From Desulfatibacillum alkenivorans DSM 16219 (GTDB taxonomy: Bacteria; Desulfobacterota; Desulfobacteria; Desulfobacterales; Desulfatibacillaceae), in assembly GCF_900142135.1 (NCBI RefSeq), contig NZ_FQZU01000002.1:62001-126000 (forward strand): a DNA stretch of 64,000 bases, written 5' to 3'. The notes below the pieces were generated by a model. That model had not been told where the DNA came from. It was given only the letters and a program-made list of their open reading frames with translations, and did not search any database. Every line of letters starts with the position of its first letter. Position 1 is the stretch's first letter. Positions 20,425 through 57,103 of the stretch are shown piece after piece. The position numbers were made by a program, and so were the translations under genes.

Positions 20425-21729
20425 TTATTCGGGCATGGGATGGGAGAAGGTGCTGGTGAAGATGTTTTTCTTCACGTCCAGGCTGGGCTCGTTGGCGCAA
20501 AAGCTCCGCATGACCGAAAATTCTCCGCCGCCCTGGCCTTCAAAGGTTGCCACGACCTCGCCGGTCTCCGTTCTTTTGACCACGCCGGTAATCCAGGGCA
20601 TCTGGGCGAAGATGCAATAGGTTTCCACAATAAAGGTTACGTCCGAAAGCATGGGCGCGTAATTAGAGCCGATGTTCACGTAGGCTTCCACGGTGTACTG
20701 GTCGTTTTTGCCGACGACCGTCAAATCCGTGGGAAGGTATTGGCGGGCCTCTGCGTCCCACTGCCAGTCTCCGTGCACCCAGCCCAGCTCGCCGTCCTCC
20801 GCGTGAAAGCGTTGAACGACCGGATTGCCGTTGTCCAGAAAGTCCACGTCCACGTAGTCCAGGTTTTCCGTATTGAAATGATAGGTCTGGAAGGCCCACT
20901 GCACATGGGTGTCGGGGTCGGACATGAAGGCGAAGTCCCATCCGCCCAGGACGAAGGCCCATCTGCCGAAGGAATTTTCCCGGTATCCGTGGCCGTTGAT
21001 TTCCGTGGTTTCGCCCGTGGAAAGATCCGTAATGCTCCCATGGACCTCCGTGGTGGGCCACAGCATGTTGACCGTCCAGTGTTCGTCCGGCAGCAGGGCG
21101 TCGGTATCGTTGCCCACAACCCAGGTTTCGGGCTTTAACGGCGCGTAATCGGTGAATCCCTGGTTTACGGAAAAGTCCCAGGCGTAAGCTCCGTTATTTC
21201 CCCGAATGATCATGACGTCGGGCTCGCCGTTTTCTCCGGGGACCGGAATTTCTTCAATAAAAACTCCGTCCTCGCCCTCGGCGTACAGGGAGCGCTCGTT
21301 CACGCCCACTTCGTGGCCCAGGCCGAGAGGCGTGTAAATGGCCACCGGTTCTTTGCCGGGAAACTGGCCGTACAGGGCGAAATTGACCCCCGAAGGCATG
21401 AGGTTGAGGGCCGAAAAGGTTTCGTTGCCGCCCAGTTTCCCTTCCGGGTCCGCCACCACGATTCCGACCACGCCGGTGAACTTGCCGTCGTCGTCGTGAA
21501 AGGAGTAATAGTCCCATTCCAGGGAGAAGCCGTCCAGGGCGTTAAATTTCCGATAATCATCCTGCAGGATGTTCCAGCCGCCCAGGCCGTCCCGCATGAC
21601 GTGATTATAATCAATGGTGTGCTGCTCCGGCCAGGTTGGTTTGGGGCTCATGGCGTAGGCCCCGGATGCGGCCAGGATCAGGGTTGCAACAACCAGGCTC
21701 AGGACTTTAAATACGGATCTCTTTGTCAT
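20425..21729 (-). CDS. Secreted AttH/CrtC-like (lipocalin-type) protein
   Basis: About 434 residues with a signal peptide (about 1-26, ending AYA-M). The body resembles the AttH / hydroxyneurosporene synthase (CrtC) / tocopherol-cyclase-like beta-barrel families. The clearest hint is INGHGYRENSFGRWAFVLGG, which matches the GxGYxDHNWG-type signature, with Asn-Ser in place of His-Asn. In CrtC-type hydratases that region is near the active site, so catalysis is uncertain. Cys occurs twice near the C-terminus and could pair in the periplasm. I chose the ATG at 21729, six bases after GGAGGGG. It is a single gene with its own terminator. Its substrate, perhaps a lipid, is unknown. Confidence 0.65.
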   Translation of the reverse strand: MTKRSVFKVLSLVVATLILAASGAYAMSPKPTWPEQHTIDYNHVMRDGLGGWNILQDDYRKFNALDGFSLEWDYYSFHDDDGKFTGVVGIVVADPEGKLGGNETFSALNLMPSGVNFALYGQFPGKEPVAIYTPLGLGHEVGVNERSLYAEGEDGVFIEEIPVPGENGEPDVMIIRGNNGAYAWDFSVNQGFTDYAPLKPETWVVGNDTDALLPDEHWTVNMLWPTTEVHGSITDLSTGETTEINGHGYRENSFGRWAFVLGGWDFAFMSDPDTHVQWAFQTYHFNTENLDYVDVDFLDNGNPVVQRFHAEDGELGWVHGDWQWDAEARQYLPTDLTVVGKNDQYTVEAYVNIGSNYAPMLSDVTFIVETYCIFAQMPWITGVVKRTETGEVVATFEGQGGGEFSVMRSFCANEPSLDVKKNIFTSTFSHPMPE

Positions 21730-22619
21730 GCGTTTCCCCTCCATAGGTGTGTGTGCAAGGCCGGGAGGCGGGCGGCGTATCAAGGCGGGGCGCCGCGCAG
21801 CTCCCTTATTGACTAACCCGTCTAACATGCTCTTGACCATTAAGTCAATAGCCTTTGTTTGTAATGTTGATTAATTACCTTAAATTATATCCTTGTTTAT
21901 TATGTACGGCGTGGCTGAAATGAATAGATAGTAGGGGTATAATATATGGTTAAATAAGGGTGTATAGTTTCCCCTTTCCCCCGGCGGAAAACAGATTAAG
22001 AAAAATCAAGCCGCCGTCGGTCCACCCAAAACCCCCGTCCAAAACTCCACCCGTCCGGGCGCCTGGACATCCCTCCATGGGCTCCCAATCAAAAAATTTC
22101 CGGATCAAAATTCAGGTCCCGATCGCCCCGCGCGCCTCCTCCTTATAGGATGTCGCATCTGCTGAAAAAGCGGTTTGACGGGCATGATTATCCACCTGTT
22201 GTTCCCGCGGCCCTTCCCGAATCCGGACGGCCCGCCCCCTGTAAAAGCGCTTTGCGGGAGATTGTGAAAGCCTTCACTTAGCCGCCGGATTTTCTTAGGA
22301 TTGCGTAATTCTTTGGAATTTCACCATCCGTTCAAAAGTTATTTTTTTCACATGACTAGAAAGCAATTATTTGCTTGACACATAGGTCTGTTTTCCTGCA
22401 TATGAATGTTTCCAGCGCTTGATGGAAACGCTTTATTGGAACCATCTGCTTTGTTATTCCGTTTCGCCTGGTAATGCTGGCTTGCAAGAGCCCTTAAATG
22501 CGCCTTCCCCCCATCAATTCCCGTCCGGGAAAGGGAAGGCTTGAATTACTCTTCACTACAATAAAGGAGCAGAAACCCTGCTTACAGCATTAGAAAAAGC
22601 GCGCAAAGATCCGGACTCC
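21730..22619. other. Intergenic region upstream of the acyl-CoA cluster
   Basis: It divides the AttH-like gene from the TetR gene. A Pro-rich frame at about 21960-22148 has no ribosome binding site and is not called. The right third holds the likely promoter and operator elements of the TetR / acyl-CoA cluster. Confidence 0.5.
22375..22429 (+). promoter_or_regulatory. Candidate -35 box and TetR-type palindrome upstream of the acyl-CoA cluster
   Basis: A consensus TTGACA lies at 22375-22380, but the -10 at 17-bp spacing (GCATAT) is poor. Just downstream GTTTCC (22408-22413) and GGAAAC (22424-22429) form an inverted repeat with a 10-bp spacer, the size usual for TetR-family operators. It is about 190 bp before the TetR gene. 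Confidence 0.4.
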
Positions 22620-23225
22620 ATGAAAGGGAGAATTCTGCGCGACGCTCGCAAGATATTTGGAGAATACGGCTTCCACGGCACCACAACCCGCATGATCGCC
22701 CAAAAGGTGGGGATCGACATTTCCACCCTGTATTATCACTGGGGGGAAAAGGGCGACCTGTACGAAGCGGTCGTCCAGGACATCTTTGAGGATCTGCGGT
22801 CCAAGCTGGTGGAAATCGAGCACATCATTCACGGCAAGCCTTTGGCGGACAGGTTGACCATCGCCTTGGACATCATGACGGATTATCTTTTTGAGAATCC
22901 CGAAATTTCCAACCTGACGCTGTACCGTTATTTCACCAAAACCCGGCACGAGTCGGTCTTGGAAGTAAAAGTGCCTGAAACCATGGGGAATATAGCTTAT
23001 TCCATGGGGCTGGTGAATGACAAGAAGGCCTTGCCTGTGGATGCGAAAATGAAGATGTTGGCAATGATGAACTCAATCCATAATTTCATATCGGGGGAAG
23101 GGTTTTTCAAGGTTCTGTTGGATGTGGACCATGAGGACTATGTGAGGGTGGTGAAAGAAACTCTGGGTTTTGTGTTGATTCCTGCATTTACGCAAGCAAC
23201 GAAGGCTCAGGACTCCTCTGAATAG
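22620..23225 (+). CDS. TetR family regulator of the acyl-CoA degradation cluster
   Basis: 201 residues. The N-terminal HTH (about 3-50) includes ARKIFGEYGFHGTTTRMIAQ and IDISTLYYHWGEKGDLY. The helical C-terminal domain (about 60-190) would bind a ligand, probably an acyl-CoA given the neighbours. It lies 89 bases before the hydratase fusion gene on the same strand, so it likely controls that cluster and itself. The ATG at 22620 has no clear ribosome binding site. AAAGGAG at 22563-22569 lies eight bases before an in-frame CTG at 22578, so a protein 14 residues longer from a rare CTG start is possible. Confidence 0.85.
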   Translation: MKGRILRDARKIFGEYGFHGTTTRMIAQKVGIDISTLYYHWGEKGDLYEAVVQDIFEDLRSKLVEIEHIIHGKPLADRLTIALDIMTDYLFENPEISNLTLYRYFTKTRHESVLEVKVPETMGNIAYSMGLVNDKKALPVDAKMKMLAMMNSIHNFISGEGFFKVLLDVDHEDYVRVVKETLGFVLIPAFTQATKAQDSSE

Positions 23226-23314: not shown

Positions 23315-25426
23315 ATGGCTCTAAACATGGATGCAATCGGCAAGAAAATCGGCCCGATAGAGAAGGATTACACCTGGAAGGATGTGGTCCTTTACGCATT
23401 GGGCGTTGGCGCCGGGTTCGATGAACTCGACTATGTGTACGAGAAAGACCTGAAGGTCATCCCCAGTTTCTCCATTGCGGCGGTTTTTGAGTTTTTAAGC
23501 CACATTGGAGCGAATTCCAACGTGAATCTGGCGGGTCTCCTTCACGGCGAACAGGATTTGATCTTTCACAGGCCCATCCCGACTTCGGGCAAGCTGGTGA
23601 GCGAAGGGGCGGTCACCAAGTATTACGACCTGGCCGCGGCCGGCAAAAAAGGCGCTATTATCGTCGGCGAAAGCGTGTCCAGGGACGCCAAGGGCAAAAA
23701 GCTCTTCACCGCCAAAACCACCTTGTTCGGCCGCCTGGACGGCGGATTCGGCGGCGAAGCTCCTCCCAAGGAAGTGGTGGAGTACCCGGACCGGGATCCC
23801 GACTTTGTGGTGGAAGAGCATCCCTCCAAGGACGCTCCCCTGCTGTACCGGATGTCCGGGGACGTGTTCGTGCTTCATATCGACCCGGAATTCGCCAAGA
23901 TGTCCGGCTTTGAAATGCCCATCATGCACGGCCTGTGCACCCACGGCTATGCATGCCGCGCACTGATCAACTCCTTGTGCCCCGGCGAACCCGAAAAGGT
24001 CCGCAGGCTCAAGTGCCGCTTCTCCAAGACCCTGTACCCCGGAATTCCCATCGCCATTAAAATCTGGAAGACCGGCGAAGGCACGGCCGTATGGCGCGTC
24101 ATCAATCAGGAAAACGGAGACGTGGTCATCGACCAGGGCATCTTCGAATACGGCGACGTGGTGGAAGAGCAAATCCGCTACGACGGCCGTGTGGCGGTCA
24201 TCACCGGCGCGGGCGCGGGCCTGGGCAAGGCTTACGCTCTGGAACTGGCCAAACGCGGCGCCAAAGTCGTCATCAACGACCTGGGCGGCTCCCGCGACGG
24301 CACAGGCGCAAGCTCCAGCGCAGCCGACGCCGTGGTGGACGAAATCAAGGCCGCCGGCGGCGAAGCGGTCGCCAACTACGACAACGTGGCCACGCCCGAA
24401 GGCGGCGCCAACGTGGTCAAGACCGCCATGGACGCCTTTGGGCGGGTGGACATTCTCATCAATAACGCGGGCATTCTCCGGGATAAATCCTTCCTCAAGA
24501 TGGAGCCCGAAAACTGGAACGCCGTCCTCAACGTGCATTTGAACGGCGCTTACAACGTGACCAAGGCCGCCTTCCCCATCATGAAGCAAAACGGGTTCGG
24601 CCGCATCGTCATGACCACCTCGGCCGCGGGCCTGTACGGCAACTTCGGCCAGACCAACTACTCGGCCGCCAAGATGGCCCTGGTGGGCTTCATGAACACC
24701 CTCAAGCTCGAGGGCAATAAGTACAATGTCAAGGTGAACACCGTGGCGCCTCTGGCCGCCTCCCGTCTCACCGAAGACATCATGCCCGAGGAAATCTTCA
24801 ACAAGGCCAAACCCGAATACGTGGTTCCCATGACCTTGTATCTCTGCACCGACGAATGCGACGTAACCGGCCGCATTTACAATGTGGGCATGGGCTTCTT
24901 CAACCGCGCCGCCGTGGTTACCGGCCCGGGCGCCGTTCTGGGACAGGGCGACGACATCCCCACCTGCGACGACGTGAAAGCCGCCATGCCTAAGATCGGT
25001 TCGCTCAAGGACGGCAAGGAGTACTTTGAGCTCAACGCCCAGGTAGGCGACGTCATGATGGCTTTCCAGGCGCCTCCGTCCGGCGGCGGAGCTGCAGCGG
25101 CGGGCCCGGCCACTCCGGCCGACGCATTCGCCATGCTGGAAAGCACATTCCAGCCCGATGCAGCCGACGGCGTGGACGTTGTGTTCCAGTACAGCATTTC
25201 CGGCGCAACCGGCGGGGAATGGAATGCCGTGATCAAGGACAAGACCTGCAAGGTCTCCGAGGGCAAACACGACAAGCCCACCACCGTCATCATCATGGAA
25301 GACAAAGACTTCATGGCCATGACGGCCGGAACCCTGAATCCCATGCAGGCTTATACTTCCGGTAAGCTGAAAATCGAGGGAGACGTCATGAAATCCCAGC
25401 TTCTTGAAAAGCTGTTCAAGGCGTAG
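23315..25426 (+). CDS. Three-domain fusion: MaoC-type hydratase, SDR dehydrogenase, SCP2
   Basis: 703 residues. A double-hotdog hydratase-2/MaoC-like domain (1-285) is followed by a short-chain dehydrogenase (about 290-580) with TGAGAGLG (297-304), NNAG and YSAAK, and by an SCP2 lipid-binding domain (about 605-703). Peroxisomal MFE-2 has the same parts in the order SDR-hydratase-SCP2, so this is a rearranged version. Predicted role: hydrate a trans-2-enoyl-CoA and oxidise the 3-hydroxyacyl-CoA on one chain. The hydratase-2 motif usually reads SGDxNPLH; here it is SGDVFVLH (181-188), keeping Asp183 and His188 but with Phe at the Asn place. Strong ribosome binding site AAAGGAGG. First enzyme gene of a cluster with a condensing-enzyme fusion, thiolase and acyl-CoA dehydrogenase. 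Confidence 0.88.
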   Translation: MALNMDAIGKKIGPIEKDYTWKDVVLYALGVGAGFDELDYVYEKDLKVIPSFSIAAVFEFLSHIGANSNVNLAGLLHGEQDLIFHRPIPTSGKLVSEGAVTKYYDLAAAGKKGAIIVGESVSRDAKGKKLFTAKTTLFGRLDGGFGGEAPPKEVVEYPDRDPDFVVEEHPSKDAPLLYRMSGDVFVLHIDPEFAKMSGFEMPIMHGLCTHGYACRALINSLCPGEPEKVRRLKCRFSKTLYPGIPIAIKIWKTGEGTAVWRVINQENGDVVIDQGIFEYGDVVEEQIRYDGRVAVITGAGAGLGKAYALELAKRGAKVVINDLGGSRDGTGASSSAADAVVDEIKAAGGEAVANYDNVATPEGGANVVKTAMDAFGRVDILINNAGILRDKSFLKMEPENWNAVLNVHLNGAYNVTKAAFPIMKQNGFGRIVMTTSAAGLYGNFGQTNYSAAKMALVGFMNTLKLEGNKYNVKVNTVAPLAASRLTEDIMPEEIFNKAKPEYVVPMTLYLCTDECDVTGRIYNVGMGFFNRAAVVTGPGAVLGQGDDIPTCDDVKAAMPKIGSLKDGKEYFELNAQVGDVMMAFQAPPSGGGAAAAGPATPADAFAMLESTFQPDAADGVDVVFQYSISGATGGEWNAVIKDKTCKVSEGKHDKPTTVIIMEDKDFMAMTAGTLNPMQAYTSGKLKIEGDVMKSQLLEKLFKA
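24182..25426 (+). repeat. SDR-SCP2 coding duplication, copy 1
   Basis: The 1.25-kb segment coding for SDR plus SCP2 closely matches 26999-28246 in the next gene. Long stretches are identical, for example RDKSFLKMEPENWNAV and SAAGLYGNFGQTNY, and both end GKLKIEGDVMKSQL. Confidence 0.85.
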
Positions 25427-25513: not shown

Positions 25514-28246
25514 ATGATAGGCATCACCTCATATGGAGCATACATTCCTCGCTTGAGGTTGGACCGTATGGCCATTTTCCAGAGCATGGGCTGGTTTGCA
25601 CCGGCCATCATGGTGGTGGCCCAGGGCGAAAGGTCCATGTGCAACTGGGACGAAGACGCCCTCACCATGGCTGTGTCCGCTTCCCAAGACTGCCTCAAGG
25701 GGATGGATAAATCGAAACTGGACGCCGTTTACCTGGCTTCCACCACCCTGCCTTTCGCCGACAGGCAGAATGCGGGCGTTATTAAGGAAGCCCTGAACCT
25801 GTCCGACGGCCTTCTGGCCACCGACGTTGTGGGCTCCCAAAAAGCAGGCACTTCCGCCCTGATTACGGCCCTGGACGCCGTTTCCGGCGGAAACAAGAAA
25901 AATATCCTGGTCACCGCTTCCGACAAGCGGGAAACCAAGGGCGCCTATTTTTACGAAATGTGGTTCGGCGATGGCGCGGCTTCCGTGGCCGTCGGAAACG
26001 GCGACGACGTCATCGCCGAATTCCTGGGCTCCTATTCCGAATCCCACGACTTCAACGATCACTACCGCGGCGCATCCAACCGCTTTGACTATGTGTGGGA
26101 AGAACGCTGGGCCAGAGACATGGGCTACAGCAACTTCATCCCCAAGGCCATCAACGGCGCCATGGAAAAAGCCGGCGTGGCCATCGGCGACGTCAGCAAG
26201 CTGGTTTACCCCTGCTTCTTCGGCGCGGAACACAAAAAGATCGCCAAAAAACTGGGCGCAACTCCAGAACAGGTCGTCGGCAACCTGCATAAGGAATGCG
26301 GCGAGTGCGGAGTGGCCCATCCCTTTGTGATGCTGGCCTCCGCCCTGGACGGCGCCAAAGCCGGCGACATCATCGTGGTGGCCGGCTACGGCCACGGCGT
26401 GGACGCCCTGGTCTTCAAGGTCACGGACAAAATCGCCGACCTGGCGGAGCGCGACGGATTTGCAGGAACCATCGCCAACAAAAAGATCGTGGACAACTAC
26501 GCCAAGTACCTGATCTTCCGCGGCCTCCTGGAAAATGAAATGGGCATTCGCGCCGAAGCGGAAACCCAGACCGCCATGACCGTCCTGTGGCGCAAACGCA
26601 AAATGCTCCTGGGCCTGGTGGGCGGCAAGTGCCGCGAGTGCGGAACCAAGCAGTTCCCCAAAATGGATATCTGCGTGAATCCCGAGTGCGGCGCCTTTCA
26701 CAGCCAGGACGAGCAGGAATTCATCAATACTCCGGCCAAGGTCAAGACCTTTACCGCGGACATGCTGTCCGTGTCCTTTGAGCCCCCCAACAAATACGGC
26801 CTCATCCAGTTTGAGGGCGGCGGCCGCATGATGGCCGACTTCACCGACTGCGATCAGGAAGAAATCCGCGTGGGCCTGCCCATGAAGATGGTCTTCCGCC
26901 TCCGCTGCTGGGACAAGGATCGCGGCTTCCGCAATTATTTCTGGAAGGCGACCCCGGTTCCGGGCGCAGCCGCGGAAATGGATAAAATCAACTTCAACGA
27001 TCGCGTGGCCGTCATCACCGGCGCCGGCGGCGGCCTGGGCAGAACCTACGCCCTGGAACTGGCCTCCCGGGGCTGCAAAGTGGTGGTCAACGACCTGGGC
27101 GGCGCCCGCGACGGCTCCGGCGGCGGCAGCGCCAGCCCGGCGGACAACGTGGTCGAGGAAATCAAGCAAATGGGCGGCGAAGCCGTCGCCAACTACGACA
27201 ACGTGGCGACCCCCGAAGGCGGCGCAGCCATCATCCAGAGCGCCATCGACGCATTCGGACGCGTGGACATCGTCATCAACAATGCGGGCATCCTCCGGGA
27301 CAAGTCCTTCCTCAAGATGGAGCCCGAAAACTGGAACGCCGTCATGGCCGTGCATTTGCACGGCGCCTACAATGTGACCAAGCCCGCCTTCTCCATCATG
27401 AAGCAGCAGGGTTTCGGCCGCATCATCATGACCACCTCCGCCGCAGGCCTGTACGGCAATTTCGGCCAGACCAACTACTCCAGCGCCAAAATGGCCCTGG
27501 TGGGCTTCATGAACACCCTGAAGCTGGAAGGCGGCAAGTACAATATCAAGGTTAACACCGTGGCGCCTCTGGCGGCCTCCCGTCTCACCGAAGACATCAT
27601 GCCGCCCGAGATTTTCGCCAAGATGAAGCCTGAGTTCGTGTCTCCCATGGTGCTGTACCTCTGCTCCGAAGACTGCAAGGAAACCGGCCAGATCTTCAAC
27701 GCAGGCATGGGCTACTTCAACCGGGCCGCGGTCATGACCGGGCCTTCCGTACAACTGGGCGAAGGCGATACGCCTCCGACCCTGGAAGACATCGCCGATA
27801 ACTGGGAAGCCATCAACAGCATGGAAGGCGCCAAGGAGCTTAACGACCTGAACTCCGCCATGTTTGATATGCTCTCCCCGCCGGCTCCGGCCGCCGAAGC
27901 CGCAGCTCCCGCTGCAGGCGGCGAAATCAAACCCGCCGACATCTTCGCCGGCATGGCCGACACATTCAATCCCGATAAGGCCGAAGGCGTGGACGTGGTG
28001 TTCCAGTTCAACATTTCCGGCGGCAATGGCGGAGAATGGAACGTGACGGTCAAGGATAAGACCTGCACGGTGGCTGAAGGCAAGGCCGGCAAGGCGACCT
28101 GCACGATTATCATGGAAGACGCCGATTTTGTGGGCATGATTTCCGGAACCCTGAACCCCATGACGGCGTTCAACTCCGGCAAGCTCAAGATCGAAGGCGA
28201 CGTCATGAAATCCCAGCTCATCGACAAACTGTTCACCGCCAAATAA
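25514..28246 (+). CDS. Four-domain fusion: HMG-CoA-synthase-like, DUF35, SDR, SCP2
   Basis: 910 residues. A thiolase-fold domain like HMG-CoA synthase (about 1-345) is followed by a DUF35 zinc ribbon with four cysteines (CREC...CVNPEC, about 378-397) and OB-fold (to about 470). An SDR follows (about 495-775, TGAGGGLG, NNAG, YSSAK) and then SCP2 (about 810-910). In archaea HMG-CoA synthase, thiolase and DUF35 are separate proteins of one complex; here two are fused and the thiolase is the next gene. By eye, the nucleophile site (ACKAGTA-type) reads GSQKAGTSAL, so Cys is replaced by Gln109, and the usual Glu near 79 is not evident. The domain may therefore be a scaffold, or a decarboxylase like KSQ domains (inference). 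RBS AAGGAGAGG. Confidence 0.87.
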   Translation: MIGITSYGAYIPRLRLDRMAIFQSMGWFAPAIMVVAQGERSMCNWDEDALTMAVSASQDCLKGMDKSKLDAVYLASTTLPFADRQNAGVIKEALNLSDGLLATDVVGSQKAGTSALITALDAVSGGNKKNILVTASDKRETKGAYFYEMWFGDGAASVAVGNGDDVIAEFLGSYSESHDFNDHYRGASNRFDYVWEERWARDMGYSNFIPKAINGAMEKAGVAIGDVSKLVYPCFFGAEHKKIAKKLGATPEQVVGNLHKECGECGVAHPFVMLASALDGAKAGDIIVVAGYGHGVDALVFKVTDKIADLAERDGFAGTIANKKIVDNYAKYLIFRGLLENEMGIRAEAETQTAMTVLWRKRKMLLGLVGGKCRECGTKQFPKMDICVNPECGAFHSQDEQEFINTPAKVKTFTADMLSVSFEPPNKYGLIQFEGGGRMMADFTDCDQEEIRVGLPMKMVFRLRCWDKDRGFRNYFWKATPVPGAAAEMDKINFNDRVAVITGAGGGLGRTYALELASRGCKVVVNDLGGARDGSGGGSASPADNVVEEIKQMGGEAVANYDNVATPEGGAAIIQSAIDAFGRVDIVINNAGILRDKSFLKMEPENWNAVMAVHLHGAYNVTKPAFSIMKQQGFGRIIMTTSAAGLYGNFGQTNYSSAKMALVGFMNTLKLEGGKYNIKVNTVAPLAASRLTEDIMPPEIFAKMKPEFVSPMVLYLCSEDCKETGQIFNAGMGYFNRAAVMTGPSVQLGEGDTPPTLEDIADNWEAINSMEGAKELNDLNSAMFDMLSPPAPAAEAAAPAAGGEIKPADIFAGMADTFNPDKAEGVDVVFQFNISGGNGGEWNVTVKDKTCTVAEGKAGKATCTIIMEDADFVGMISGTLNPMTAFNSGKLKIEGDVMKSQLIDKLFTAK
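26999..28246 (+). repeat. SDR-SCP2 coding duplication, copy 2
   Basis: Second copy of the segment at 24182-25426. The SDR core is the most alike; the linker before SCP2 differs in length and sequence. Confidence 0.85.
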
Positions 28247-28261
28247 CAGGAGGGACGCATC

Positions 28262-29473
28262 ATGGCTACTGGAATTAAAGATAAAGTCGCTATCATCGGC
28301 ATGGGATGCACCCGTTTCGGCGAACGCTGGGACGTGGGCGCCGAAGAACTGATGGTGGAAGCTTTTCAAGAATGTATACAAGACGCTGGAATTGATAAAA
28401 AAGAAATCCAGGCCGCATGGTTCGGCACCTGCCTGGATGAAGTCAACGTAGGCAAGTCCGCAGTGCCGCTGTCCACAACCCTGCGCCTGCCTTTCATCCC
28501 CTGCACCAGGGTGGAAAACTACTGCGCCACCGGTACGGAAGCCTTCCGCGGCGCCGTATACGCGGTCGCTTCCGGGGCTTATGACATCTGCCTGGCCCTG
28601 GGCGTGGAAAAGCTGAAAGACACCGGTTACGGCGGACTGCCCGGCGGCGGCTCCAACGCCGGCTCCCTCATGTGGCAGTGGTGGCCCATGCTGACGGCTC
28701 CGGGCTCCTTCGCCCAACTCGCCAGCGCCTACGCCGCCAAGTACAAGATCCCCGACGGAGACCTCAAACGCGCCATGGCGCACGTCTCCGCCAAAAGCCA
28801 CGACAACGGCGTCTTGAACCCCAAGGCTCACCTGCAAAAGAAAGTCACCGAAGACCAGATCATGGCGGCGCCCATCATCGCCCATCCCCTGGGACTCTTT
28901 GACTGCTGCGGCGTGTCCGACGGTTCGGCGTGCGCCATTGTCACCACGCCTGAAATCGCCAAGAAATTGGGCAAAAAGGATTTCATCACGGTCAAGGCCC
29001 TGCAGCTTGCCTTGTCCTCCGGCGAGGAAGTGGGATACAATGACTGGGACGGCGATCATTTCATGACCACCAGTCGCGCCAGCGTCAAGGCTTACGAAGA
29101 AGCCGGCATCACCAACCCCAGGGAGGAAATCTCCATGATGGAAGTGCATGACTGCTTCTCCATCACCGAGTTGGTGACCATGGAAGACCTCCATATCTCC
29201 GAAAGGGGCCAGGCGGTCAAGGACATCATGGACGGCTTCTATGACCTCAAAGGCGGCGGAGTCCCCTGCCAGGTGGACGGCGGCCTCAAGTGCTTCGGCC
29301 ACCCCATCGGCGCTTCCGGACTTCGCATGCTGTACGAAATGTACCTGCAACTCCATGGAAAGGCCGGGGAACGCCAGATTGACAATCCCAGGCTGGGCCT
29401 TACGCACAACCTGGGCGGCTTCCCGTTCCAGAACGTTTGCGCCATTTCCATAGTCGGAAAATACGACGGATAA
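28262..29473 (+). CDS. SCP-x-type thiolase / acyl-CoA acyltransferase
   Basis: 403 residues of thiolase fold. The nucleophile Cys88 is in ENYCATGTEAF. A His motif (HDCFSITEL, about 294-302) and GHPIGASG (about 343-350) are present; the second active-site Cys of classical thiolases (CxG near the C-terminus) is not obvious, as in SCP-x-type enzymes. Relatives with a DUF35 partner include BbsB of the toluene pathway (with BbsA) and the Ltp2 retro-aldolase (with ChsH2). Here the DUF35 part is fused into the upstream protein, 15 bases away. It likely cleaves a 3-ketoacyl-CoA, or a beta-hydroxy acyl-CoA by retro-aldol. RBS AGGAGG. Confidence 0.88.
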   Translation: MATGIKDKVAIIGMGCTRFGERWDVGAEELMVEAFQECIQDAGIDKKEIQAAWFGTCLDEVNVGKSAVPLSTTLRLPFIPCTRVENYCATGTEAFRGAVYAVASGAYDICLALGVEKLKDTGYGGLPGGGSNAGSLMWQWWPMLTAPGSFAQLASAYAAKYKIPDGDLKRAMAHVSAKSHDNGVLNPKAHLQKKVTEDQIMAAPIIAHPLGLFDCCGVSDGSACAIVTTPEIAKKLGKKDFITVKALQLALSSGEEVGYNDWDGDHFMTTSRASVKAYEEAGITNPREEISMMEVHDCFSITELVTMEDLHISERGQAVKDIMDGFYDLKGGGVPCQVDGGLKCFGHPIGASGLRMLYEMYLQLHGKAGERQIDNPRLGLTHNLGGFPFQNVCAISIVGKYDG

Positions 29474-29481
29474 CCCATCCG

Positions 29482-29516
29482 CGGCCCCGGACCGCCTTGG
29501 CGGCCCGGGGCCGTTT
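29482..29516 (+). terminator. Strong GC hairpin after the thiolase gene
   Basis: CGGCCCCGG (29482-29490) pairs with CCGGGGCCG (29505-29513), with an inner CCGCC-TT-GGCGG stem. Only three T residues follow, so it may pause or attenuate rather than fully stop transcription into the small gene at 29534. Confidence 0.5.
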
Positions 29517-29533
29517 ACCCAGAGGCATTGGGC

Positions 29534-29851
29534 ATGCTCGAAGTCAAGGCCATCATGAATTCCAGCGTTGAGGACGTCATCGGGTTCAAATGCTGCAACC
29601 TGCCCGACCAAAACCTGGAAATCCATGTGAAAAACGCCGGCGAAAAACCGGTTAAAGCGCTCAGCCGCTTTGTCCTGGATGCGGGCGAAAAACAGGTGGA
29701 GCTTACCACCGTGTATCCGCCCGGAGGCCAGGTGATTCAGCCCGGAGAGGCGGCGGCCTTTTACTGCAACATGGATGATGAGGAATGGAAGCTGTATTCT
29801 TCCATCACCGCCTTTGACGATCAGGGAGGGTCGTTCACCGCCGCTCTGTAA
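29534..29851 (+). CDS. Small conserved-looking protein in the acyl-CoA cluster, unknown
   Basis: 105 residues, no signal peptide or membrane segment. The composition suggests a small beta-sandwich (EIHVKNAGEKPVKALSRFVL, then PGGQVIQPGEAAAFYC). No family was recognised. ATG at 29534 has AGAGG about nine bases upstream; a TTG two codons earlier is in frame. It sits between the thiolase and the acyl-CoA dehydrogenase on the same strand, so a role linked to that pathway, perhaps structural, is the best guess. Confidence 0.6.
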   Translation: MLEVKAIMNSSVEDVIGFKCCNLPDQNLEIHVKNAGEKPVKALSRFVLDAGEKQVELTTVYPPGGQVIQPGEAAAFYCNMDDEEWKLYSSITAFDDQGGSFTAAL

Positions 29852-29899
29852 TGGGGTCAAATCTACGTTTGACGTTTGAGGATCGGGTCTTTTCGAAAA

Positions 29900-29998: not shown

Positions 29999-31141
29999 AT
30001 GGAAATCTTGCAATACACCCCGGAGCACCACGCGTTTCGCGAGCAGTTTCGGGCTTATTTGGCCGAGAATGTGATTCCGCACATCCCGCAATGGGAAGCG
30101 GACCACATCGTGCCTCCCGAAGTATGGCGGGATTTGGGGCGCAACGGCTATCTGTGCACGGCCACGCCCAAGGAATACGGCGGCCACGGCATGGATTTTC
30201 TGTACTCGGTCATCATCACCGAAGAAATCGGCAAGACCGGCTTCTGCGGCCTGACCTTGGGGCTGCACAGCGATATCGTGGTGCCCTATATCGAAACTTT
30301 CGGCACCGAAGAGCAGAAAAAGAAATTCCTGCCCGGCTGCGTGACCGGCGAGACCATTACTTCCGTGGCCATGACCGAACCGGGCACAGGGTCCGACCTT
30401 TCCTCCATGTCCACCACGGCCGTCGAGGACGGGGACGACATTATTATCGACGGCACCAAAACCTTTATTTCCAACGGCATCAACACCAACCTGTGCGTGG
30501 TGGCGGCCAGGGACCCCAACGTGGAAAATCCCTACGAAGCCATTTCCCTGTATCTGGTGGAAGGGGATCGCCCGGGATTCGAGCGCGGCCGTCATCTGGA
30601 CAAGATGGGCTTCAACAGCCAGGATACGTCGGAGCTCTTTTTCTCCAAATGCCGCATTCCCAAGGAAAACCTCCTGGGCCAAAAAGGCGGCGGATTCATC
30701 ATCCTCATGCAGAAATTGCAGCAGGAAAGGCTCATTTGCGCCATCGGCGCGGTCGTCGCCGCGGAAATGATGACCGAAAGAATGATTCAGTACTGCAAGG
30801 AGACCACCCGCAACGGCAAGCCGTTGAGCAAGTTCCAGGCCATCCAGTTTGAACTGGTGGAAATGGCCACGGAAGCCAAACTCGGCCGCGCATTCCTGGA
30901 TAAGCTCATCGCCGAGCACGTGGCCGGTGAGCAGGTGGTGGTGGAGGTTTCCATGGCCAAATACTGGACCACGGACCTGGCCAAACGCACCATTGACAGG
31001 GCCATCAGCATCGTGGGCGAACCCGCCATGGCGGAAAGCCTCGGCCTGGCGCAGGCCATGCGGGACATCCGCATCCTGCCTATTTTTGCTGGAACCAACG
31101 AAGTCATGAAGATAGTGGCGGCAAGATTTATGGGGCTGTAA
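29999..31141 (+). CDS. Acyl-CoA dehydrogenase (LCAD/IVD-like catalytic layout)
   Basis: 380 residues, the usual family length. N-terminal helices, the FAD/substrate motif AMTEPGTGSD (about 124-133) and the C-terminal helical domain are present. It makes 2-enoyl-CoA and passes electrons to ETF. The C-terminal signature reads IFAGTNEVMK; medium-chain enzymes have the catalytic Glu where Ala is here. Long-chain and isovaleryl enzymes have Gly there and a Glu in an earlier helix; Glu260 (in AAEMMTERM) matches that place by eye, so activity is likely kept. It is the last gene of the cluster, followed by a terminator. CTGGAG precedes the ATG. Confidence 0.9.
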   Translation: MEILQYTPEHHAFREQFRAYLAENVIPHIPQWEADHIVPPEVWRDLGRNGYLCTATPKEYGGHGMDFLYSVIITEEIGKTGFCGLTLGLHSDIVVPYIETFGTEEQKKKFLPGCVTGETITSVAMTEPGTGSDLSSMSTTAVEDGDDIIIDGTKTFISNGINTNLCVVAARDPNVENPYEAISLYLVEGDRPGFERGRHLDKMGFNSQDTSELFFSKCRIPKENLLGQKGGGFIILMQKLQQERLICAIGAVVAAEMMTERMIQYCKETTRNGKPLSKFQAIQFELVEMATEAKLGRAFLDKLIAEHVAGEQVVVEVSMAKYWTTDLAKRTIDRAISIVGEPAMAESLGLAQAMRDIRILPIFAGTNEVMKIVAARFMGL

Positions 31142-50077: not shown

Positions 50078-53000
50078 TTATTCCTTTTTCCCCACGTCCT
50101 TCAACCCCAGTTTGTACATGCGGGAGTACAGGGTGGAGCGCTTCATGCCTAAAATTTCGGCAGCGCCGCCAGGGCCGTCGATGCGGCCTTTGGTTTTTTC
50201 CAGCACCTTGGTGATGTACCGGCGCTGCACCTCTTCCATGGTGGGCGCTCCGCTGAAAAAATCCCGGCCTTCGGCCTGGACTCCGCCCCGGATGTCCAGG
50301 GCGGGCCTGCGGCCTCCGGATAGAATCACGGCCCGTTCGATGACGTTTTTCAACTCCCTTACATTGCCCGGCCAGGTGTAGCCGGTCAGCATGTCTTCGT
50401 CCCGTCCGCTGAAGTTCAGGGGCTTGAAGCCGTATTTGGAGCAGTAATGGTCCAGAAAATGGCGGGCCAGCACAATCACGTCGTCCCCCCGCTCCCGTAA
50501 CGGGGGCAAAACCAGGTGGATGACGTTCAGCCGGTAATACAAATCCTGGCGGAACCGGCCCTGCTCCACCTCTTTTGCCAGGCTCCGGTTTGTGGCGGCC
50601 ACCAGCCGGAAGTCGGATTTGACGGCCTGGGCGCCTCCGACCCGGTGGAAGGTCCGGGACTCCAAAGCGCGGAGCAGCTTCACCTGGGTCTGGGGAGGCA
50701 GCTCGCCGATTTCGTCAATGAACAAGGTGCCTTCGTGGGCCATTTCGATCAAGCCCAACTTGCGGGAGTCCGCGCCGGTGAAAGCCCCTTTTTCGTGGCC
50801 GAAGAGCTCGCTTTCCACCAGGTTTTCCGGGATGGTGGTGGAGTCCACGGTCACCATGGGGCCTTTGGACCGGTTGCTGAAATGGTGAATGCGTTTGACC
50901 AGCAGCTCCTTGCCCGTGCCCGTCTCGCCGGTCACCAGGAGGGTGGCTTCTGACCGGGCCGCCATTTCCGCCTGCTCCAAAACTTGGAACATGGCTCTGG
51001 ACCGGGTGATGATGGAATCGTCCTTGCGCTGGCCGAACCGGATTTCCTTGAACGAGGCCAGGCGGCTGGCCTCCTGGCGCAGCCGGATGCACTCCACCAG
51101 ATTATGGACGTACCGGGCCAGGTGCTCCGCGCCCAGCTTGAGCAGGGAGTGGGGAACCAGGTCAAAGGCGTCGTTCACGTACATGCTTTCCAGGTATATG
51201 ACTCCCCGCAGATGTCCGGGGGCTATGATGGGCAGGGCCAGAGCCCGCCGGCGCCCGAGTTCGGCCGGGGCGTCCGGGTCCTGGGGAAGCCCCTCCACGA
51301 TCACCGCGTCCTCATGAAACGCCCTAACGGCCAGATCCAGGCTGGCGCGGAAGGACGGGGACCCGGTTTCCTGCCGGGACAGGTTGCAGCCCGTACGGAA
51401 AATCAGGGAGGCTTCGTCGTTGGGATCGGGGACGAACAGCACGCCCCGTTCGGCGATCAAAAGCAGCAGTTGCCTGCGGATGACCTCGTACAGCAGCTCC
51501 TCCTCGTCTTGGATTTGATCCAATACGTTGAGGGCGTTCATGTATCTGGCGATAAAATTCTCCAGGCTGTCTTCGGCTTCTTGCCAGCGCCCTTGCTCAT
51601 CCAGCAGACGTTGCAACTCCACGGGCAGCAGGTCCTTGTCCAGGCCCATGCCCCGGATTCTCTGCCAGACCTTGAAGGCCACGTCAGCAGCCTGCCCTTG
51701 GTTTCCTTCCGCAAGGTGCAGCATGGCCGCGGCGATGAAGGTTTTGTTTTGGGCGAACACCGCGCCGACCTTCTGAAATTGGCGAATGCTGGATTCAAAA
51801 TCCTCCATGGCCAATAGTGGGCTTTCCCCGTTGCGCAGCCGCTGCTCTCCCCGCAGACGCAGGCCCACGCCGTTTGAAAGCACTCCTTCCTGCTTCATGG
51901 CCCGTTCCATTTGCCGTTGATAATTCCATTTGCCCGGCGAGGCGTCCCGCTCCTGCCGGTTGAACTCGGGCAGCATGTCCACGATGAACAAACTGGAGAG
52001 CATGGGAGCGGTGGCGGCCTGCCGGCCCTCCACCAGGGCCTGGTGCAAAATGGCGAAGGATTCCTGGTTCCGGTCCTCGTAATAAGCGTGGATCGCCATG
52101 CCGGCCCGGGCGATGAACAGGGCGTATTCGTTGTTGGCTTGGGCTGCGTCCTTAAGCGCCTCCTGCAGGTGATGCAGGGCCTGGGGGTTTTTACGGGCCG
52201 TGGCCAGGGCCAGGCCCAGCAAAGCCCGGGCGATGCAAGCCACGGCGGACCACCCCATGTCGCGGGCGAGAATCCAGTAGGAGTGGAAAAAGCCCAGGGC
52301 CCGGGGAACCTGGCCGTTGAAAAACAGGGTAATGCCCAGGTTCCATAGGATGGTGGGGTAAAAAAGCAGCCGGTCCTGGTTTTGGGCGAAAGATTGCTCC
52401 GCCGTCTGAAAGTACCCGACGGCCTCCAAAAATTTTCCCTGGTGGATGCTGCAAAGCCCCAAAAATTCAGCCGCAGCCTTGTGGATGTCCGAATCCCCCA
52501 GGCGCTCCACTTCCTCCTTGCCCTGGATGAGCAAGGCCATGGCTTCGCCCGGCCGGCCGTAATAGGCCATGAGCCGCCCCATGTGCAGGCAGGCCAGAGC
52601 GTGGGAACGGTCGTCGCCCGAGTTTCTCGCCACGCCTATGGCGGTTTTCAGATAGGCGGACAACACCCGCATGCCCCGTCCCACGGCGTAGGAAAGGTTG
52701 GATAGCTCCAGGGTGGATTCGGTGTACAGCCGATCCACGCCGATTCGTCCCATGGTTATGTGGCTGTGGAGCATGGCCACGCCCCGGCTCAACCGCCGGT
52801 AGGCCTCGTCATGATCCTTTCTGGTCAGAGACTGGTGAGCCCGCTCCACCTCGATCTCTCCGGCCTTGTCCATCCTGCCCGCCCGGGCCTGAATCCGGGC
52901 CATGATTTCCGGCCCCAGGGATTCGGTCAGACCCAGATCTTCGATCTTGTCCGCCAGAAGTCCGTTCAGCCTGTCCGTGTTGCGCACTTCCAGGTCCAGC

Positions 53001-53221
53001 CGAATCTTCTCCGGCAGGCGGGAGCTCAAACGCAGCAACCCTTCCCCGGCTTCCTGTATCCATCCTTTTTCCCGGCAATGGGCCAGGAGCCGGTCCAGGG
53101 ACCGGGAGTCCACGGGCGCCAGAGCCTGGGCCACGGACTGGCTGACCGGGGCGCCCAATGTTTCCAGGGCGGTGAGGAATTGCCATTGGTTTTCCTGAAA
53201 CGGGGGCGGGGACGGGGGCAT
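50078..53221 (-). CDS. Sigma-54-dependent activator with TPR-like and GAF sensory domains
   Basis: 1047 residues. The N-terminal region (about 1-560) is helical with TPR-like repeats similar to MalT-type signal domains; a GAF-like domain follows (about 565-715). Next is a sigma-54 AAA+ domain with Walker A GETGTGKE, GAFTGA in the sigma-54 contact loop and Walker B LFIDEIGEL, then a Fis-type HTH (about 995-1040). GAFTGA is intact, so it should open sigma-54 promoters. The AAA+ part is switched on by ligand or protein contact, since no receiver domain is seen. ATG at 53221 has GGAG seven bases upstream. It is divergent from the AtuA operon, which has a perfect sigma-54 promoter. Confidence 0.9.
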   Translation of the reverse strand: MPPSPPPFQENQWQFLTALETLGAPVSQSVAQALAPVDSRSLDRLLAHCREKGWIQEAGEGLLRLSSRLPEKIRLDLEVRNTDRLNGLLADKIEDLGLTESLGPEIMARIQARAGRMDKAGEIEVERAHQSLTRKDHDEAYRRLSRGVAMLHSHITMGRIGVDRLYTESTLELSNLSYAVGRGMRVLSAYLKTAIGVARNSGDDRSHALACLHMGRLMAYYGRPGEAMALLIQGKEEVERLGDSDIHKAAAEFLGLCSIHQGKFLEAVGYFQTAEQSFAQNQDRLLFYPTILWNLGITLFFNGQVPRALGFFHSYWILARDMGWSAVACIARALLGLALATARKNPQALHHLQEALKDAAQANNEYALFIARAGMAIHAYYEDRNQESFAILHQALVEGRQAATAPMLSSLFIVDMLPEFNRQERDASPGKWNYQRQMERAMKQEGVLSNGVGLRLRGEQRLRNGESPLLAMEDFESSIRQFQKVGAVFAQNKTFIAAAMLHLAEGNQGQAADVAFKVWQRIRGMGLDKDLLPVELQRLLDEQGRWQEAEDSLENFIARYMNALNVLDQIQDEEELLYEVIRRQLLLLIAERGVLFVPDPNDEASLIFRTGCNLSRQETGSPSFRASLDLAVRAFHEDAVIVEGLPQDPDAPAELGRRRALALPIIAPGHLRGVIYLESMYVNDAFDLVPHSLLKLGAEHLARYVHNLVECIRLRQEASRLASFKEIRFGQRKDDSIITRSRAMFQVLEQAEMAARSEATLLVTGETGTGKELLVKRIHHFSNRSKGPMVTVDSTTIPENLVESELFGHEKGAFTGADSRKLGLIEMAHEGTLFIDEIGELPPQTQVKLLRALESRTFHRVGGAQAVKSDFRLVAATNRSLAKEVEQGRFRQDLYYRLNVIHLVLPPLRERGDDVIVLARHFLDHYCSKYGFKPLNFSGRDEDMLTGYTWPGNVRELKNVIERAVILSGGRRPALDIRGGVQAEGRDFFSGAPTMEEVQRRYITKVLEKTKGRIDGPGGAAEILGMKRSTLYSRMYKLGLKDVGKKE

Positions 53222-53288
53222 GGGGCTTCTCCATGGTTAGGGTTGGGGGGATTATGGCCGGAAAAGGGGGTTTCGGTCAAGGAAATTC

Positions 53289-53322
53289 GCCGATATATCG
53301 GCAATTACGCCGATATACCGGC
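53289..53322. promoter_or_regulatory. Paired palindromes, likely activator-binding sites (UAS)
   Basis: GCCGATATATCGGC (53289-53302) is a perfect palindrome and GCCGATATACCGGC (53309-53322) differs by one base. Centres are 20 bp apart, about two helical turns. They lie about 75-110 bp upstream of the sigma-54 promoter and about 70-100 bp from the activator start, the usual place for enhancer sites of such activators. Confidence 0.72.
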
Positions 53323-53396
53323 ATGAAGGGGGCGGCTCAAGGATGAATACTTTTAGAATTAATCATTAAATCAAACCGTTAAAAAATTGGCAGCCC

Positions 53397-53413
53397 CTGG
53401 CACGCTCCTTGCT
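53397..53413 (+). promoter_or_regulatory. Sigma-54 promoter of the AtuA operon
   Basis: CTGGCACG-CTCC-TTGCT matches the -24/-12 consensus at all key bases: GG at 53399-53400 and GC at 53411-53412, exactly ten bases apart. Transcription should start near 53424, about 110 bases before the AtuA-like ATG. Confidence 0.88.
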
Positions 53414-53532
53414 CAAATAAAAAAGCACCGGATCGTCCCCCCGGGCGATTGCTGTACCGCCGGGCCGGTCAAACCCGGCGCTGTCAGGCCTTATCCATAA
53501 ATTCAAACAATCTAATTATTGAGGTGCACATT

Positions 53533-55308
53533 ATGGCCGAGCCAAAGACGTTATTTGACGATAAACTCATCATCGCCAATTGCAGCGGCTTCTTCGGAGA
53601 CCGTTTTTCCGCAGCCAGGGAAATGGTGGAAGGGGGCCCCATTGACATCCTGAGCGGCGACTATCTGGCGGAGCTCACCATGGCCATCCTGGTGCGCCAG
53701 ACCATGAAAGACCCCACCAAAGGCTACGCCCATACCTTCCTGAAGCAAATGGAGCAGATCATGGGCCAATGCCTGGATAAAAACATCCGGGTGGTCTCCA
53801 ACGCCGGAGGCCTGAACCCCAAAGGCCTGGCCGACGAGCTGCAGAGGGTGGCGGGCGAATTGGGGCTGCACCCCAAAATCGCTTATATTGAAGGGGATAA
53901 CATTCTTCCCCGCATCGCCGAGTTGCAGGAGCAGGGCGAAAATTTCGCCCACCTGGACAAAGGCGTTCATTTGAAAGACGCCGGCGCCATGCCCATCACC
54001 GCCAACGCCTATTTCGGCGGCTGGGGAGTGGTGGAAGCCCTGTCCCAGGGCGCGGACATCGTGGTGGGCGGCCGCCTGGCCGACGCCGCCGTGGTCATGG
54101 GGCCCGCCGCCTGGAAATTCGGATGGAAACGGGACGACTGGGACAAACTGGCCGGCGCCGCCGTGGCCGGGCACATCATCGAGTGCAGCGGCCAGGCCAC
54201 CGGAGGCAATTACTCCTTTATCGACGAAGTCCCTTCCTACGACAACGTGGGCTTTCCCATCGCCGAAATGCACGAGGACGGCTCCTTCGTCATCACCAAG
54301 CATCCCAACACCGGCGGCCTGGTTTCCGTGGGCACGGTTACGGCCCAGCTTCTTTATGAAGTCCGCGAGCCCAGATACCTGACTCCGGATGTGGGCGCCC
54401 GGTTCGATACCATCCGGATCAAGCAGCAGGGCCAGGATCGGGTGGAAGTCTCCGGCGTATGCGGCGAGCCTCCCCCGGACACCACCAAGGTCTGCATCAA
54501 CAACCTGGACGGCCACACCAACTCATTCACCGTGTTGTTGACGGGCCTGGATATTGAGAAAAAGGCGAAAATTCTGGAAAACGCCCTGTTCAACAGCATC
54601 GGCGGCAAGGAGCAGTTCCGCAAGGCCGAGGTTCAGCTCATCCGCACGGACCGTGAAAACCCGGCCTCCAACGAAGAGGCCTTCGCCTACCTGCGCCTGT
54701 CCGTCCTGGACCCGGACCCGAAAAAAGTCGGGCTGTTCTCGGCCAAGCTCGTGGAACTGGCCTTGTGCAACATTCCCGGATTCACCGGAACCGCGCCCCC
54801 GGCCAAGGGCCGTCCGGTAATCCAGCATTGGCCTACCCTGGTCTCCAGGGACAAGGTGGTCCAGAAGCTCTTTTTTGACGGCAAGGAAATGGAGATCGAG
54901 CCCGCGCCCATGGGCCGGGAATTCCCTCCGGTGAAAAGCCTGGAAGTCTCCATCCCGCCCGTCCCTTCGGACGAAAAGGTCGCGGCCCCTCTGGGCCGGG
55001 TGTTCGCCACGCGGTCCGGCGACAAAGGCGGAAACGCCAACCTGGGCGTGTGGGGCAAAACCCCCGAGGCCTATGCGTTTTTGCAGGATTTTCTCACCGT
55101 GGACAAGCTGAAGGAAATCCTGACCGACATGGCCGGGTATGAAATCGAACGTTACGAGCTGCCAAACCTGTTGGCGCTCAATTTTTATATCATTGGCGTG
55201 CTTGGGGACGGAGTATCCGCGTCCCTGCGAATGGATCCGCAGGCTAAAACCCTCGGGGAGTATCTGCGGGCGAAAACCGCGGACATTCCCCGATCATTGT
55301 TACCATGA
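53533..55308 (+). CDS. AtuA-like (DUF1446) protein
   Basis: 591 residues. An N-terminal DUF1446 core (about 8-455) starts IIANCSGFFGDRFSAA and has VVSNAGGLNPKGLADEL and IVVGGRLADAAVVMGPAAW. A C-terminal AtuA-type domain (about 480-590) has VFATRSGDKGGNANLGVWG. AtuA is needed for acyclic terpene (citronellol/geraniol) breakdown in Pseudomonas but its reaction is unknown. It is followed by acyl-CoA ligases and a crotonase, so a similar route for a branched or isoprenoid acid is a fair inference. ATG at 53533 follows GAGGTG. It is the first gene after the sigma-54 promoter; 14 bases separate it from the ligase. Confidence 0.85.
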   Translation: MAEPKTLFDDKLIIANCSGFFGDRFSAAREMVEGGPIDILSGDYLAELTMAILVRQTMKDPTKGYAHTFLKQMEQIMGQCLDKNIRVVSNAGGLNPKGLADELQRVAGELGLHPKIAYIEGDNILPRIAELQEQGENFAHLDKGVHLKDAGAMPITANAYFGGWGVVEALSQGADIVVGGRLADAAVVMGPAAWKFGWKRDDWDKLAGAAVAGHIIECSGQATGGNYSFIDEVPSYDNVGFPIAEMHEDGSFVITKHPNTGGLVSVGTVTAQLLYEVREPRYLTPDVGARFDTIRIKQQGQDRVEVSGVCGEPPPDTTKVCINNLDGHTNSFTVLLTGLDIEKKAKILENALFNSIGGKEQFRKAEVQLIRTDRENPASNEEAFAYLRLSVLDPDPKKVGLFSAKLVELALCNIPGFTGTAPPAKGRPVIQHWPTLVSRDKVVQKLFFDGKEMEIEPAPMGREFPPVKSLEVSIPPVPSDEKVAAPLGRVFATRSGDKGGNANLGVWGKTPEAYAFLQDFLTVDKLKEILTDMAGYEIERYELPNLLALNFYIIGVLGDGVSASLRMDPQAKTLGEYLRAKTADIPRSLLP

Positions 55309-55322
55309 CATAAGGAGGGAGT

Positions 55323-56900: not shown

Positions 56901-56906
56901 CCGGTT

Positions 56907-56989: not shown

Positions 56990-57103
56990 ACTTAATCCCC
57001 GCCATGCGCTTCCCCCAAAATTTAAACGTATTTTCGCTTGCCGGAATCTTTATATCCTGTTAATATTTAATCTCTTGTTTTAATTTAAGATTTCATTTTA
57101 CAT

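Follow-up and report, generated by a model that had tools for sequence, protein, structure and literature searches.

In this study we describe a fat-degradation operon of the sulfate reducer Desulfatibacillum alkenivorans DSM 16219, in which a single protein combines an apparently dead domain of the HMG-CoA synthase (HMGCS) type with a seemingly intact dehydrogenase. The DNA analysed (hereafter the window) is a stretch of 64,000 nucleotides of contig NZ_FQZU01000002.1, from a genome of 6.47 Mb. The protein of interest, 910 amino acids (aa) long, is encoded on the plus strand at 25514-28246, the same boundaries as in an earlier interpretation made from the letters alone (the sequence-only reading). 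It carries, in this order, an HMGCS-like domain, a DUF35 domain, a (3R)-hydroxyacyl-CoA dehydrogenase domain of the peroxisomal MFE-2 type, which is a short-chain dehydrogenase/reductase (SDR), and an SCP2 domain. We propose that the HMGCS-like and DUF35 domains probably make up a catalytically silent docking module, which ties the dehydrogenase to the thiolase encoded just downstream.

A four-domain fusion and its relatives

A search of genome contigs confirmed 563 relatives, of which the best 80 loci were retained. These loci hold 81 open reading frames (ORFs) with the HMGCS-like (N) domain, 13 of which touch contig ends, and the counts obtained from them therefore describe the closest relatives. 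A second sample comprised 59 relatives, the genome carrying the window included. Since the 80 loci hold relatives of the fusion at 93-51% identity, the 910-aa protein is not a chance reading frame; the closest named relative among these best 80 of 563 loci belongs to a Desulfatibacillum metagenome-assembled genome (93% identity). A minus-strand ORF of 1443 aa at 25529-29860 was taken as a frame shadow.

Domain matches support the fusion that the sequence-only reading had recognized. Pfam and NCBIfam place the SDR at residues 494-738 and SCP2 at residues 820-907. OB_ChsH2_C (DUF35) matches residues 409-462 above its cut-off and zf-ChsH2 matches residues 368-394 below its own (E 0.002), in a region where four Cys (373, 376, 387 and 392) are kept in 81/81 homologues. 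Residues 1-339 are matched by archaeal-type HMGCS models, all scoring under their curated cut-offs (over residues 1-482, PRK04262 gave 188 bits vs 244, TIGR00748 127 vs 353 and TIGR01835 45 vs 360). Pfam detected no MaoC/hydratase domain in the fusion at E 0.01; the hydratase belongs to the neighbouring gene at 23315-25426.

The HMGCS-like domain has lost its catalytic residues

Searching the PDB with the N domain (phmmer) returned PhlA (9skh, E 4e-31), an archaeal HMGCS (6esq_I, 2e-30), PhlA again (5m3k) and an acyltransferase subunit (9vbo). For DUF35, 6esq_E came first and PhlB next. In the phmmer matches and in a MAFFT alignment, the catalytic Glu, Cys and His of HMGCS fall on Thr77, Gln109 and Pro233. 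Gln109 is thus found opposite the nucleophile Cys, as originally noted, and the fold seen in the predicted structure is consistent with this. At the aligned sites, PhlA has Gly for Cys, Cys for Glu and Gln for His.

Nine kinds of residue fill position 109 in the 81 ORFs (Q41 L30 I2 M2 T2 E1 V1 S1 N1), while position 77 is Thr in 76 and Leu in 4, with one gap, and position 233 is Pro in 80 and Ala in 1. In a separate alignment of 29 rows, the window included, position 109 is filled in 27 (Q8, I8, L6, A2, M2, V1). Close homologues that keep the Cys, a prospect raised by the sequence-only reading, were not encountered: Cys is absent from position 109 in 27/27 filled rows, in 81/81 ORFs, in three Pseudomonadota orthologues and in the paralogue of the same genome, these sets being partly overlapping. 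Likewise, neither the catalytic Glu nor the catalytic His was found at its HMGCS site among the homologues examined, each residue of the triad being missing from its site in 81/81. A true HMGCS was rejected on the missing triad and the sub-cut-off model scores. The triad is lost across the family as sampled, and Gln is one of several residues that took the place of the nucleophile.

The sequence-only reading had linked the Gln to a decarboxylase of the KSQ type. In such a scheme, the HMGCS-like domain would decarboxylate malonyl- or methylmalonyl-CoA through Gln109 and feed the thiolase in a biosynthetic direction. Gln109 does occupy the nucleophile position, a FabH C112Q structure (9ka5) is among the fold matches, and position 264, which lies opposite an Asn of HMGCS and which we take to be the equivalent of the KAS III Asn, is Asn in 2/3 Pseudomonadota orthologues. 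However, position 264 is Glu or Asp in 81/81 close homologues, and the cluster looks catabolic (acyl-CoA dehydrogenase, MFE-2). Gln is present at position 109 in the window protein and in 41/81 homologues, and other residues in 40/81 (Leu in 30, others in 10). Decarboxylating ketosynthases of the KSQ type are defined by a retained catalytic His, the site of which is occupied here by Pro233, and by Pro or Ala throughout the 81 homologues, where the Glu is never present either. Because the triad is lost and Gln is one of several fillers, we rejected the decarboxylase on residue conservation and leave it a very slim chance.

The predicted structure resembles thiolase-associated HMGCS-like subunits

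An AlphaFold2 model of the fusion was computed from a 47-row alignment (predicted local distance difference test, pLDDT, 83.3; predicted TM-score, pTM, 0.70). In residues 1-300, 24/30 ten-residue blocks reach a pLDDT of at least 90. Several SDR blocks are low (46-53), thus the SDR assignment is mainly drawn from sequence (2et6, E 1.7e-137). With Foldseek, the N domain matched 6esq_J/I (TM-score 0.91 by target) and PhlA (5mg5_A, 0.87), and the SDR matched rat and human MFE-2 (1gz6, 47% and 1zbq, 45% identity) with a root-mean-square deviation (rmsd) near 13 Å, and Candida 2et6 (51%) with an rmsd of 3.0. VIA-align, whose rows span mainly residues 1-478 and are silent on the SDR and SCP2, aligned the modelled N domain with 6esq_I at Z 47.2 (rmsd 1.6 over 335 residues), which places it within the HMGCS fold. 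The next chains were 9skh_C (45.5), 5mg5_A (44.7) and 9vbo_B (42.7); HMGCS and FabH-type chains followed at about 36-39.

These matches point to two kinds of known complexes. The HMGCS-like domain, DUF35 and the thiolase each have a matching chain in 6ESQ, the archaeal acetoacetyl-CoA thiolase/DUF35/HMGCS complex: 6esq_I, second by sequence after a PhlA chain and first by fold, 6esq_E and 6esq_A, respectively. Unlike the window protein, which lacks the triad, the HMGCS of 6ESQ is active, with Cys114 and Glu82 according to the accessible part of PMC6392133; it belongs to the mevalonate pathway and is not fused. PhlABC (PpATase of Pseudomonas protegens; 5M3K, 5MG5), together with CsATase (9SKH) and MucABC (9VBO), similarly combines an HMGCS-like subunit lacking the catalytic Cys and Glu (PhlA), a DUF35 protein and a catalytic thiolase encoded by adjoining genes. 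In contrast to the fusion, its subunits are separate, it transfers acyl groups to phenols without CoA, and neither an SDR nor SCP2 is described there in the accessible text. PhlA, about 29% identical to the window N domain in the structural alignment, is the nearest analogue of the HMGCS-like domain. As far as the available text of PMC6392133 goes, the key Cys and Glu are missing from PhlA, catalysis involves residues of PhlC only and the full operon is required for activity. In a related enzyme, the PhlC substitution C88S abolished formylation activity (PMC12955522, 2026, accessible part).

An intact thiolase is linked to the module

The thiolase gene starts 15 bases 3' of the end of the fusion. 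PRK06157 recognizes its product at 707 bits (cut-off 403), and the top PDB hit of this product is 6esq_A, the thiolase chain of 6ESQ. Its active site is intact: with the window copy counted, Cys88 is kept in 68/68, His296 in 67 with 1 gap, and Cys344 and His347 in 66 with 2 gaps. The locus thus encodes three components homologous to those of a thiolase/DUF35/HMGCS-like complex, in adjoining genes and with the thiolase Cys and His in place.

We next counted how often the two genes go together. A thiolase lies downstream of 69/71 testable N-domain ORFs, testable meaning that at least 300 bases lie downstream or that a thiolase is present (71/81). One of the two ORFs without a thiolase, L057, has 304 bases of room; the other, L053, is weighed below. 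In the second sample, the HMGCS-like/DUF35 module was detected at E 1e-10 in 26/59 relatives, and 39/41 thiolases above the PRK06157 cut-off have an N-domain gene no more than 2 kb upstream in the same orientation. The two exceptions are a thiolase at contig base 279 (G008) and one with an SDR-SCP2 tail, truncated at the contig end, just upstream (G012). Conversely, 6/45 N-domain places have no thiolase above the cut-off: four are near or at contig ends (G008, G039, G002 and G004), one has a weaker thiolase nearby (G013, 298 bits) and one is broken by a stop (G010). This count used 45/47 module rows, second gene fragments in G035 and G010 being left out. A single complex with the adjoining thiolase, as the sequence-only reading had proposed, is plausible given the homology and the gene linkage.

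The C-terminal half is a putative MFE-2-type dehydrogenase

The SDR domain of the fusion is 39-51% identical in fold matches to peroxisomal MFE-2 (1GZ6, 1ZBQ, 2ET6, 3OML). It keeps Ser642, Tyr655, Lys659 and Asn589 as well as Asp527 of the NDLGG motif in 50/50 homologues, the Ser-Tyr-Lys set and the Asp presumably having the same roles as in the MFE-2 SDR. Animal MFE-2 also includes an SCP2 domain; we know of no MFE-2 with HMGCS-like or DUF35 domains. The fusion differs from a whole MFE-2 in that hydratase-2 is encoded by the neighbouring gene, on another chain. In the homologues of this neighbouring MFE-2, the SDR Ser/Tyr/Lys are kept in 43/43, and the hydratase Asp190 and His205 in 42/43 and 43/43, respectively. 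These conserved residues lead us to propose that the C-terminal half actively dehydrogenates (3R)-hydroxyacyl-CoA, probably with NAD, and carries SCP2 for acyl binding.

The fused SDR and the adjoining MFE-2 SDR are paralogues, and the tails of the window proteins share 68% of their residues. In a quick tree, the two SDRs of the same locus are mutual sisters in L068 (support 100), L072 (97) and L088 (99). At L072:3812-8855, three consecutive 40-codon blocks of both SDRs are identical in protein and codon choice, with differing ends, which is the mark of recent gene conversion between the two. At L068:6796-11727, the SDR domains of MFE-2 and fusion also appear homogenised by gene conversion.

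Stand-alone modules suggest the origin of the fusion

The 81 ORFs comprise 39 full fusions, 12 fusions with the SDR and without SCP2, and 30 two-domain proteins, or 37, 6 and 25 when the 13 contig-end ORFs are removed; L053, with a partial SDR, was counted as two-domain by score threshold. The fusion is common among the Desulfobacterota relatives sampled. In a quick tree of the N domain, stand-alone proteins branch earliest and the fusion group holds 58 rows (52 fusion, 4 alone, 2 unknown) with a support of 87, many inner forks being weak. This tree suggests a stand-alone two-domain ancestor of the fusion. A single gain followed by a few losses fits the tree but is not proven by it, a minimum of 5 changes in architecture label being required by its well-supported branches.

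A second cluster of the same genome, like Variovorax, Azoarcus and Novosphingobium plasmids, has a stand-alone two-domain gene adjoining a thiolase 65-71% identical to that of the window. Clusters of the stand-alone type often encode an SDR on its own, with 60-64% identity in eight related loci and 40-46% in Pseudomonadota. The second cluster (L123:5918-11946, G000:C34), judged mostly by eye, encodes as separate genes two acyl-CoA dehydrogenases, an SDR that appears to be a different one, an HMGCS-like/DUF35 protein whose nucleophile site is occupied by Ile, and a thiolase. It is adjoined by an apparent sigma-54-type activator.

The gene cluster

The genes lie on one strand in the order TetR, MFE-2-like, fusion, thiolase, 107-aa protein and acyl-CoA dehydrogenase (Table 1). 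A promoter and terminator scan was near chance (7 vs 5.5 and 17 vs 14.4, respectively).

Table 1. Features of the cluster, with positions in the window.
Feature	Position	Strand	Basis
TetR-family regulator, first cluster gene	22620..23225	+	PF00440, E 6.6e-15; homologues upstream in many of 80 loci
MFE-2-like enzyme (MaoC/hydratase-2, (3R)-hydroxyacyl-CoA dehydrogenase SDR, SCP2)	23315..25426	+	Pfam; PDB matches are peroxisomal MFE-2
HMGCS-like domain, residues 1-345	25514..26548	+	Glu/Cys/His replaced by Thr77/Gln109/Pro233
DUF35 zinc ribbon and OB fold, residues ~346-482	26549..26959	+	PF01796 over cut-off, PF12172 below; PDB 6esq_E
SDR, putative (3R)-hydroxyacyl-CoA dehydrogenase, residues ~489-740	26978..27733	+	Asp527, Asn589, Ser642, Tyr655, Lys659; top PDB matches 2et6, 1gz6, 1zbq
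SCP2 domain, residues ~801-910	27914..28243	+	PF02036 at 820-907, E 1e-19
Thiolase, proposed catalytic partner	28262..29473	+	NCBIfam PRK06157 (NF004810); Cys88, His296, Cys344, His347
107-aa protein, family unassigned	29528..29851	+	no Pfam or NCBIfam match at E 0.01; homologues at E 1e-8 in 7/80 related loci, many of these loci cut short
Acyl-CoA dehydrogenase, last cluster gene	29999..31141	+	Pfam; homologues downstream in many of 80 loci

In four related loci (L044:14688-17072, L052:13120-15481, L078:13044-15533 and L112:5367-7700), two different acyl-CoA dehydrogenase genes stand side by side. The paired proteins are about 26-28% and 56-61% identical to the acyl-CoA dehydrogenase of the window and may form a heteromeric dehydrogenase. 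Elsewhere in the window (50078-59072), the genes of an AtuA-family protein and of two AMP-binding ligases accompany a sigma-54-type activator on the minus strand, possibly as a second cluster for acyl-CoA degradation. A 471-aa protein at 20425-21840 on the minus strand has what looks by eye like a signal stretch close to the start, and neither Pfam nor NCBIfam matched it at E 0.01.

Discussion

We propose that the HMGCS-like/DUF35 module has the thiolase as its docking partner, in the manner of PhlA and PhlB with PhlC, and that within this complex the chemistry would be performed by the thiolase alone. The C-terminal half would dehydrogenate (3R)-hydroxyacyl-CoA, SCP2 acting as acyl carrier, and 3-oxoacyl-CoA would thus be produced beside the thiolase that cleaves it. 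Among the steps of beta-oxidation, the fusion would couple dehydrogenation (step three) to thiolysis (step four); the neighbouring MFE-2 would provide the hydratase and a second dehydrogenase, and the acyl-CoA dehydrogenase would perform step one. A physical complex between fusion and thiolase, as well as the hand-over of 3-oxoacyl-CoA, is suggested by homology and gene linkage, and the predicted inactivity of the HMGCS-like domain by its residues. The substrate might be a branched acyl-CoA, a guess from the SCP2-type thiolase and the resemblance to MFE-2; neither the accessible text of PMC5109826 nor the open-licence PubMed Central papers listed gave a hint on it.

Other systems pair a thiolase-fold enzyme with DUF35. 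To our knowledge, an HMGCS-like subunit is absent from the benzoylsuccinyl-CoA thiolase BbsAB (7PXP) and from the aldolases Ltp2/ChsH2 and Sal/Shy. In all of these, the thiolase-fold enzyme has a DUF35 partner (PMC12329534, accessible part); in Shy, DUF35 is joined to a MaoC hydratase and copurifies with Sal (PMC11321319, accessible part), which we count as a precedent for a DUF35 tether. The thiolase-fold subunit of the aldolases carries out retro-aldol cleavage, unlike what we propose for the window thiolase.

An HMGCS-like domain without chemistry might instead bind CoA or acyl-CoA in a fused CoA site, gating or sensing the substrate of the thiolase. In 6ESQ, CoA sits at the subunit interface and is contacted by residues of all three proteins (PMC6392133), and a site shared by thiolase and HMGCS is described in PMC12329534, both sources being accessible in part. 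The well-retained fold (Z 47.2) and the many invariant polar residues would also fit such a role. However, PhlABC, a relative that also lacks the triad, has no CoA-binding residues there according to the same part of PMC6392133, and we consider CoA binding rather unlikely.

Several observations weigh against a silent docking module. In the Shy-Sal pair, tethered by DUF35, 93% of the intermediate is released and caught by a competing enzyme (PMC12329534, accessible part), thus tethering need not mean channelling. The module is missing at E 1e-10 from 33/59 relatives, and L053 has 8.6 kb of downstream sequence without a thiolase. Over 20 loci, distances of the N domain correlate with those of the thiolase (r 0.72) no better than with those of the MFE-2 hydratase (0.76), so that we see no sign of special co-evolution between N domain and thiolase; this mirror-tree test was uninformative. 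Last, Cys234 and His269 of the HMGCS-like domain are invariant in 81/81 close homologues, and the old pocket may therefore have another role.

The N-domain ORF of L053 (L053:8989-10821) is 611 aa long and ends within the SDR, which may reflect a degraded cluster or a sequence error.

The invariant Cys234 and His269 could form a relocated active site beside the old one, for an acyl-CoA reaction of another kind or for holding a thioester during transfer. Cys234 indeed adjoins the position of the old catalytic His in sequence. However, Cys234 is replaced by Leu, Glu and Ala in the Variovorax, Azoarcus and Novosphingobium orthologues, whose neighbouring thiolases are of the same kind and which keep only His269 (3/3), and in the 29-row alignment Cys234 is missing in 2/29 rows and His269 in 6/29. 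Weakened by these orthologues, a relocated Cys nucleophile appears improbable, the Desulfobacterota clade being where there is still room for it. We retain the docking module as the probable role of the HMGCS-like and DUF35 domains.

The sequence-only reading knew of no described enzyme of this architecture. Part of it has a precedent: both the thiolase/DUF35/HMGCS-like complex and a silent HMGCS-like subunit (PhlA) are already known, and PhlABC shares the same logic (PMC6392133, accessible part). The further fusion of this module to an MFE-2-type dehydrogenase and SCP2, along with the close linkage to a thiolase and the occurrence across Desulfobacterota, was not found described among the open-licence PubMed Central papers listed, judged mostly by titles and abstract starts; it appears to be a new combination of known parts. 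Tentatively, it could represent a third multienzyme architecture for beta-oxidation, unrelated to FadB/FadA, in which a dead condensing enzyme, recruited as the docking platform, would hold an SCP2 carrier and an MFE-2-type (3R)-specific dehydrogenase against an SCP2-type thiolase. Within one such particle, an anaerobe would process its D-hydroxyacyl-CoA intermediates.

The series from stand-alone module to fusion without SCP2 and full fusion depicts an enzyme that has seemingly turned into a structural part. The thiolase/DUF35/HMGCS-like triad is predicted to be of general use as a scaffold when bacteria break down acyl-CoA, the fusion hinting at which enzyme the scaffold serves. Several sulfate reducers degrade fatty acids and alkanes, and in these organisms the fusion offers a physical connection, open to testing, of the dehydrogenase step with the thiolase step.

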